Source: Roseobacter sp. SK209-2-6
Lineage (GTDB): Bacteria; Pseudomonadota; Alphaproteobacteria; Rhodobacterales; Rhodobacteraceae
Assembly: GCF_000169455.1 (NCBI RefSeq)
Contig: NZ_AAYC01000003.1
Location: forward strand, 62,001 to 126,000
DNA: 64,000 nt
Reading direction: 5' to 3'
The notes beneath the pieces are model-generated. The model was not told the origin of the DNA and made no database searches. It saw only the letters and a program-made list of their open reading frames with translations. Shown in pieces: positions 52,394 through 52,865 of this stretch (positions are counted from its first letter, which is position 1; every line of letters begins with the position of its first letter). The translations under genes were made by a program, and so were the position numbers.

Positions 52394-52504
52394 GCCGTGC
52401 TATGCGGCCTGGCTGGAGCGGAAGACATGAGGACGCCGGCAAGCTGCGCCAAGGGAGGACTGGCAGCCTGTTTTCCTTTGTCCCCACCGCCACCCGCGGT
52501 TTGA
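52394..52504 (-). other. gbcA leader downstream of the riboswitch
   Basis: About 110 bases that would hold the expression platform. ACCGC and GGCGGT can pair shortly after the aptamer, and further GC-rich segments could mask the gbcA start, but I see no T-run after a stem, so translational control is more likely than termination. Confidence 0.4.
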
Positions 52505-52685
52505 CTATCAAGGCAAGGCTGGTTTCCGGACTTTCATCGGGGTCAAATGACCGGCCGCAGCGCCTTCCCGGGGTCCTCGTCCCAGTGGCTCTTGCTACGC
52601 CCTTGCCCGATGTTACCGTTGCGGGGGCAGTGCCGGATTCACACCGGCTTCCCAATTCTCCGCCCCAATGGGACGACACCTTACT
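52505..52685 (-). promoter_or_regulatory. cobalamin (B12) riboswitch in the gbcA leader
   Basis: Read leftwards the leader contains, in order: a G-rich 5' stem region (GGTGTCGTCCC), TTGGGAA, the stem GCCGGTGTGAATCCGGC, the B12-box core CTGCCCCCGCAACGGTAA (about 52613-52633), the peripheral CACTGGGA and CCCCGGGAAGG elements, and the closing AAGTCCGGAAACCAGCC (about 52517-52534). This matches the conserved order of the AdoCbl riboswitch. About 110 bases separate it from the gbcA start, and no other gene lies between; the upstream TetR gene ends before it. The expression platform (terminator or ribosome-site sequestration) is not obvious. Confidence 0.93.
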
Positions 52686-52865
52686 TAATAGGAAAATTAG
52701 CCAGATCTTGCGGTTCTGATCGCTTGATTACGACTTTGAAAAATCTGGAAAAGACATGTAGCTAAATTGCGTGTTTGCAGGCCTTTGCCAACCTGATCCA
52801 GACAACAAAGGGAAGCGACACCTCAGGCGAAGAATGCGCCCTTCCGAAGGCAAAGGCATAGGGAA

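Follow-up and report, generated by a model that had tools for sequence, protein, structure and literature searches.

A cobalamin riboswitch in the leader of a Rieske-type N-demethylase operon of Roseobacter sp. SK209-2-6 and its conservation in alphaproteobacteria

Results and discussion

A cobalamin riboswitch precedes a two-gene Rieske N-demethylase operon

The window (the whole 64-kb stretch of Roseobacter sp. SK209-2-6 DNA analysed here) carries the features collected in Table 1. A cmscan search against all of Rfam matched the RF00174 Cobalamin model over its whole length (model positions 1-189 of 189) at 52499-52698 on the reverse strand, with an E value of 1.9e-27 and a score of 112.7 bits against a gathering score of 31.5, and this was the sole gathering-level Rfam match within the window. 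A permissive Rfam scan returned four matches, of which RF00174 alone exceeded its own threshold; the others included a PYLIS_3 match inside the MttB gene at 24.1 bits, below its 38-bit threshold. An earlier note on this DNA had placed a cobalamin riboswitch at 52394-52690 and proposed checking it in Infernal with RF00174; the covariance-model match, found far above the gathering score, confirms the element, and the span originally given takes in nearly the whole aptamer plus the expression platform.

The aptamer lies on the same strand as the oxygenase gene, in its 5' leader, and its end lies 120 nt short of 52378, the likely start; the operon behind it consists of two genes, for a Rieske N-demethylase and its reductase. 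By sequence, the element is an adenosylcobalamin-type riboswitch of this operon, with putative AdoCbl binding. Alignment of 13 close leaders (the window and 12 relatives) put the ATG at 52393 on the Shine-Dalgarno position, which suggests that the oxygenase starts at 52378 or 52375, both in frame with 52393. A sigma-70 consensus scan of the leader found no promoter.

Table 1. Features of the operon, its leader and neighbouring genes in the window
Feature	Position	Strand	Basis
Reductase subunit, GbcB/Stc4-like (FAD, NAD, 2Fe-2S)	50064..51149	-	NF058606 362/500 bits; Pfam
Rieske N-demethylase oxygenase subunit, GbcA/Stc2-like	51146..52378 (ORF open from 52393)	-	Pfam Rieske + Ring_hydroxyl_A
Shine-Dalgarno position ATGAGAG (AGGAGAG in most relatives)	52387..52393	-	Leader alignments
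GTCTTCCGC, partner of GCGGGTGGC (52489-52497), candidate anti-sequestor helix	52418..52426	-	Alignment pairing
Hairpin ACCGC-GGGTG-GCGGT, candidate P13, 3' edge of aptamer	52486..52500	-	Sequence; conserved in alignment
Cobalamin riboswitch aptamer	52499..52698	-	RF00174, 112.7 bits
Possible -10 element TAATTT	52694..52699	-	Conserved TA columns in leader alignment, inferred
Candidate GbdR/CdhR-type AraC (GlxA-family) activator site: direct repeat of TGTC.. and AGTCGTAA with a 21-bp period	52726..52756	-	Position weight matrix
Dimethylglycine/sarcosine-dehydrogenase-like protein (DAO + FAO_M + GCV_T), possible next betaine-catabolic step	56157..58679	-	Pfam; relatives beside operon
GbdR-like GlxA/AraC regulator, candidate operon activator	58748..59743	-	NF052371 GbdR 313/480 bits; DJ-1_PfpI + HTH_18
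MttB-superfamily methyltransferase, candidate corrinoid-dependent counterpart	60050..61606	-	PF06253 700 bits

Identity of the enzyme

The solved proteins nearest to the oxygenase are 3n0q (786 bits) and then Stc2 (3vca/4qup, 664 bits), the stachydrine demethylase, which is its nearest characterised relative. Residues C89, H91, C109, H112, H207, H212, D361 and D363 are identical in 12 aligned proteins, and we take these Cys, His and Asp residues to be the ligands of the Rieske cluster and the mononuclear iron. The Pfam domains and the candidate iron ligands group the protein with the Rieske quaternary-amine N-demethylases (GbcA, Stc2, CntA), and the operon product is thus, by family, an O2-dependent quaternary-amine N-demethylase of the GbcAB/Stc2 type. 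The locus had been called gbcAB in the earlier note; an O2-dependent Rieske oxygenase/reductase pair stands by family, but the name is not secured, as the oxygenase scores 509.9 bits on the GbcA equivalog NF058607 against a cut-off of 670 that was reached in none of 64 genomes. The Stc2 orthologue of S. meliloti R14 (67% identical to the oxygenase) scores 498 bits on the same model, about equal to the window protein at 510, and no reference protein above the cut-off was found, so that a plain GbcA assignment is unproven and the protein can be placed by family, as a quaternary-amine N-demethylase.

Proline betaine or another betaine, instead of glycine betaine, might accordingly be the substrate behind the same switch, an alternative to which the close kinship of the oxygenase with Stc2 lends some weight and which we nevertheless consider unlikely. 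Stc2 nests in the same protein tree as the oxygenase but falls in a separate, riboswitch-free clade, and OYE-type partner genes, part of the stachydrine gene context, were near 0 of 47 riboswitch-led genes compared to 27 of 89 others. In a record labelled S. meliloti Ak57 the riboswitch-led gene is distinct from stc2, and no riboswitch was found before stc2 on the three S. meliloti pSymA records examined, from other strains. Genes resembling dimethylglycine dehydrogenase (DMGDH) occur within 5 kb of the operon in the window, at locus L132 (71% identity) and, weakly, at L105 (32%), and one lies directly beside the operon in the riboswitch-free genome G227 (L111, 67%). The Paracoccus ferrooxidans relative has no riboswitch and groups in the protein tree with riboswitch-led Rhizobium genes; it sits in a cluster with a GlxA regulator, ETF, FolD, PurU, formaldehyde dehydrogenase and a BCCT transporter. 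This cluster and the DMGDH-like neighbours favour glycine betaine, which is probably, by prediction, the substrate.

The riboswitch is conserved before related genes in many genera

In 75 of 295 genomes of the family the oxygenase had a match with an E value no higher than 1e-60. A family set of 64 genes from 61 genomes, our own included, was defined by a BLAST score of at least 450, and a riboswitch lay directly upstream of 25 of these 64 genes, all 25 being confirmed with the Rfam model, where chance would predict 0.01-0.12 riboswitch-led genes (from 219 riboswitches in 60 genomes). Among the best 80 of 596 loci in named genomes 24 carried the riboswitch and 21 of these were confirmed by Rfam (L125, L136 and L178 being nhmmer-only calls, and L136 and L202 being copies of family-set genes). 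These riboswitch-led loci, among the best 80 of 596, belong to Rhodobacterales, Hyphomicrobiales and Rhodospirillaceae, and come from Phaeobacter, Ruegeria, Shimia, Sulfitobacter, Roseibium, Marivivens, Loktanella, Hoeflea, Labrys, Rhizobium, Mesorhizobium and a Rhodospirillaceae MAG; locus L131 is scored as riboswitch-led in the context counts below, with an Rfam score of 82.3 bits. Riboswitch-led genes are also found on plasmid records of Ruegeria sp. TM1040, Tritonibacter scottomollicae and the record labelled S. meliloti Ak57, and the Ruegeria sp. TM1040 oxygenase, with the riboswitch in its leader, is the protein of structure 3n0q. Comparing the leaders of relatives, as the earlier note had advised, thus shows the element kept in many genera.

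On the protein tree the riboswitch label changes 10 times compared to 21 in shuffles (26 positives of 68 rows, with L110 scored positive); a second tree, of the named loci, has 25 of 80 positive including L137 and 24 without it, with L135 and L169 left out because of frame or length. Both L110 and L137 were excluded from the final riboswitch counts. The first, from genome G238, shows weak partial similarity (27.9 bits) with no Rfam match. At the second, in Primorskyibacter, a 47-nt riboswitch remnant at 5729-5775 lies upstream of the oxygenase gene, with the downstream hairpin still recognisable, and points to at least one loss of the riboswitch. Two such loci might be expected were the riboswitch a neutral or decayed passenger, a reading which we regard as highly improbable given the full-length, high-scoring aptamers and the conserved platform found across orders. 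The regulatory link between riboswitch and demethylase operon is, on this comparative evidence, real and widely conserved.

Elsewhere in the set, G227 (96% complete) gave no RF00174 match under strict filters, and its demethylase genes have GbdR-, MttB- and DMGDH-like neighbours in the same orientation. At L179 a TPP riboswitch (5381-5487, reverse strand) is directed away from the demethylase operon's cobalamin riboswitch.

Riboswitch-led genes are mostly solitary

A catabolic or regulator neighbour (OYE, DMGDH, LysR, GbdR, BCCT, formaldehyde-dehydrogenase or sarcosine-oxidase-like) was found within 5 kb of 4 of the 47 riboswitch-led genes compared to 57 of the 89 other genes (P = 1.5e-10, kinship ignored), a contrast which may be favoured by queries that came mostly from riboswitch-free loci and by flanks of unequal length. 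These counts were made after merging eight near-identical pairs, and include L135 and L169. Among seven independent pairs, every pair that differed did so in this direction (on average 4.2 to 0), but their number is too small for significance. Such rarity of catabolic neighbours suggests that the riboswitch-led copies are mostly solitary, as expected in a global cofactor regulon, and many of the riboswitch-free genes belong to substrate clusters.

Ribonucleotide reductase (RNR) or methionine-synthase neighbours were found at 10 of 47 riboswitch-led genes compared to 8 of 89 others (P = 0.06), and we do not claim enrichment. In Marivivens niveibacter (L133, 1559-7227) two cobalamin riboswitches stand back to back, one before the demethylase operon and the other directed toward class Ib nrdEF, which lies 724 nt away. 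In Hoeflea (L156, 9054-9259, reverse strand) a strong cobalamin riboswitch closely follows nrdB, and no ORF of at least 150 amino acids is listed behind it on that strand.

An activator-type repeat lies upstream of the aptamer

The direct repeat upstream of the aptamer has, in riboswitch-led leaders, the consensus TGTCttttTtgg..c.gc.aATGTCGCAatc with a period of 21 bp. In leave-one-out scoring with a position weight matrix, 46 of 51 riboswitch-led leaders exceeded the 99% shuffle null (the 51 including two copy pairs, as L136 and L202 are copies of family-set genes), and the window's own site scored 19.8 bits. The half-site GTCG[CT] was present in 49 of 53 upstream regions of riboswitch-led genes (two plasmid leaders being counted twice) compared to 4 of 18 upstream regions of other riboswitches.

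In Pseudomonas, GbdR drives gbcA. The CdhR site is GGTCGC-N15-GGTCGC, and the GbdR, SouR and ArgR sites are very similar, as given in an excerpt of PMC5806209. The repeat of the riboswitch-led leaders has the same period and GGTCGC-like half-sites with a 15-bp spacer, and so resembles the published sites of GbdR-group activators; its copy in the window is a candidate binding site, at which the GbdR-like protein encoded in the window may act. It was also detected before 44 of 96 riboswitch-free genes (99% genomic null), so that it belongs to the gene family and not to the riboswitch. In the 300 nt upstream of the TetR, MmgE, DMGDH, GbdR, MttB, PotD and SpeB genes of the window there was no repeat above the 95% genomic null.

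The expression platform suggests translational control

The candidate P13 hairpin contains GCGGG, which could pair with CCCGC of the aptamer's C-rich loop, a complementarity that presumably serves as the kissing loop. The segment GCGGGTGGC has a partner 62 nt downstream in the window, and this candidate anti-sequestor helix was paired in 97.6% of cells in 14 sequences compared to at most 65.1% when slid; its changes are one-sided, with no compensatory pairs, and 364 of 500 column shuffles reached the same pairing. Pairing of the partner segment with the Shine-Dalgarno sequence (the sequestor) held in 82.9% of cells, less than for the anti-sequestor. Energies of the duplex from P13 to the downstream segment were mostly no better than shuffles in these GC-rich leaders, so that the platform reading leans on the alignment counts and is suggestive; the window's own platform also folded no better than shuffles (z 0.17). 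Transcription termination was considered, and no terminator was found in the leader, which, together with the pairing alternatives, makes translational control the more likely mode by inference.

B12-dependent counterparts in the same genomes

The whole genome has seven RF00174 matches, of which the operon leader is one. By reading of the translations, the other six precede genes for B12, cobalt uptake or transport: DUF1636 with an ABC ATPase, an ABC substrate-binding protein, the cbiM cluster, a cobG-like start, BluB, and DUF1636 with cobW. Such company, with further cobalamin riboswitches within 7 kb in L113 and L202, might suggest that the Rieske pair itself works in cobamide metabolism, as BluB or other riboswitch-led cob genes do; we think this most unlikely, because the candidate iron ligands and the sequence group the oxygenase with quaternary-amine demethylases, a betaine-type activator repeat stands upstream of the operon, and riboswitch-free relatives are often in betaine or OYE clusters.

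The same genome encodes one B12-binding_2 protein (249 aa, MtgC-type), one S-methyl_trans protein about 3 kb from it, and seven MTTB paralogues, and gave no match to MetE (PF08267). Its B12-dependent system of MtgC type is thus a split one. The earlier note had pointed to an MttB-superfamily protein encoded 9 kb away, and genes for B12-dependent demethylation do occur in this genome. Relatives (78-84%) of the MttB protein of the window are encoded near riboswitch-free Rieske genes in L154, L198 and L069, in the last of these directly after the reductase gene. A strong MtgC match was present in 23 of 25 genomes with the riboswitch and 32 of 36 without, which is no difference, and the two riboswitch genomes lacking it are incomplete assemblies (84% and 73%). 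The median MTTB count was 4 with and 1.5 without the riboswitch (Mann-Whitney P = 1e-5), an excess which 7 independent, kinship-corrected pairs cannot confirm, and full MetH-like genes were found in 7 of 25 compared to 18 of 36 genomes (P = 0.11). Genome G270 was seen to hold fifteen MTTB paralogues in 3.7 Mb. Our own genome encodes another, distant Rieske protein (L097, on C23 at about 201100-206000; 37%, and 288 bits by the GbcA model), which has an OYE-type flavoprotein and an MTTB paralogue adjoining it, a possible further pair of O2-dependent and corrinoid enzymes.

Two of the 61 genomes matched PF08267, neither of them among the 25 that carry the riboswitch, which suggests that B12 probably stays essential in these bacteria and that economy in its use is a plausible gain. 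In Ruegeria pomeroyi, MtgC and MtgD take part in methionine synthesis as well as in betaine demethylation, according to an excerpt of PMC12478193; as the riboswitch-bearing genomes examined gave no MetE match, the switch may reserve B12 for methionine when the vitamin is scarce. These observations also speak for a purpose other than isozyme exchange, namely one-carbon balance or methionine supply, in which oxidative demethylation would relieve the corrinoid pool or supply formaldehyde to folate while methionine synthase lacks B12. Four of 47 riboswitch-led genes do have split methionine-synthase genes within 5 kb, but this is not significantly different from 3 of 89 others (P = 0.23), and we judge this purpose rather improbable as the main one, slightly more so than a different betaine substrate; it is compatible with a B12-gated replacement of the corrinoid route, not opposed to it.

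Comparison with known systems

A close likeness is to the B12-independent isozymes under B12-riboswitch control (metE and class I nrd), in that a riboswitch precedes a B12-independent enzyme and a B12-dependent route, here the MtgC-type protein and the seven MTTB paralogues, is encoded in the same genome; the Marivivens operon even stands back to back with an nrdEF-directed riboswitch. Unlike those systems, the target is a catabolic osmolyte demethylase and the operon keeps a substrate-type activator repeat upstream of the riboswitch. That the oxygenase and the corrinoid route would perform the same reaction is a family-level reading. GbcAB of Pseudomonas and Chromohalobacter shares the Rieske oxygenase and reductase and the GbdR-like repeat upstream, whereas the window pair stays under both NCBIfam cut-offs, at 510/670 and 362/500 bits. 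Stc2/Stc4 of Sinorhizobium meliloti shares the two-gene layout and the identity noted above, whereas stc2 has a divergent LysR gene and falls in a separate clade. MtgBCD, with the split methionine synthase, of Ruegeria pomeroyi would carry out the same first step, and our genome has an MtgC-like protein and MttB paralogues; MtgBCD transfers methyl groups to folate in a corrinoid-dependent manner, whereas the window pair would release formaldehyde with O2.

The B12-element surveys of 2003 (Rodionov/Vitreschak) reportedly listed an orphan alphaproteobacterial operon, 'ardX-frdX', for a ring-hydroxylating dioxygenase and a ferredoxin with no function assigned, which we suppose may be this riboswitch-led demethylase operon. 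The earlier note did not recall the link having been described: full-text searching for B12 riboswitches with betaine demethylases gave no describing paper among the matches listed, but the 'ardX-frdX' entry may mean that the operon, if not its function, had been recorded. In the survey of PMC3766115 the isozymes of B12-dependent enzymes form a class of their own, and its main text contains neither 'betaine' nor 'dioxygenase'; a link between B12 riboswitch and betaine demethylase is not mentioned in the excerpts of PMC9600662 and PMC8123684, and that of PMC12478193 has 'riboswitch' once only, in a reference title on glycine.

A proposed gate by substrate and B12

The aptamer, its position and conservation, the intact enzyme and the upstream activator-type repeat are all direct readings of sequence, and from them we propose the following. 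When a betaine is present, a GbdR-like activator would turn on transcription of the operon. Without B12, GCGGGTGGC would pair with GTCWTCYGC and leave the Shine-Dalgarno sequence free; with B12, GCGGGTGGC would dock on the aptamer and the freed segment would mask the Shine-Dalgarno sequence. The oxygenase would be made only with substrate and without B12, and would then replace or relieve the corrinoid route, in which MttB-family enzymes would act with MtgC and MtgD. Taken as a whole, the reading that an AdoCbl-type riboswitch shuts off an O2-dependent quaternary-amine demethylase operon, which would replace or relieve the corrinoid route when B12 is scarce, is the one we favour with reasonable, though far from full, confidence. 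The earlier note had proposed much the same switch to an O2 route under B12 scarcity; the real and conserved riboswitch, the Rieske pair by family and the B12-dependent genes in the genome speak for it, while its naming of the enzyme as GbcA and its idea of one-carbon supply are not secured.

The likely function of the operon is thus a predicted B12-independent demethylation route gated by substrate and B12. Since the arrangement is common to many alphaproteobacteria, the O2 route is probably used only at low B12. We see the chances as evenly divided for the broader proposal that alphaproteobacteria at large share a betaine-AND-NOT-B12 gate, with corrinoid methyl transfer to folate and methionine in the presence of B12 and O2-dependent demethylation to formaldehyde in its absence.

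Betaine is a major nutrient of marine bacteria. Its demethylation has been tied to cobalamin in an excerpt of PMC12478193, and with a B12 riboswitch on the O2 route, the route chosen would depend on B12 or cobalt supply, and vitamin exchange would be linked to nitrogen and one-carbon flow. The link would also predict a function for a conserved riboswitch-led operon. If the gate is true, an osmolyte abundant in the sea would have its catabolism under a B12 switch, and an orphan of long standing in the B12 regulon would be explained.
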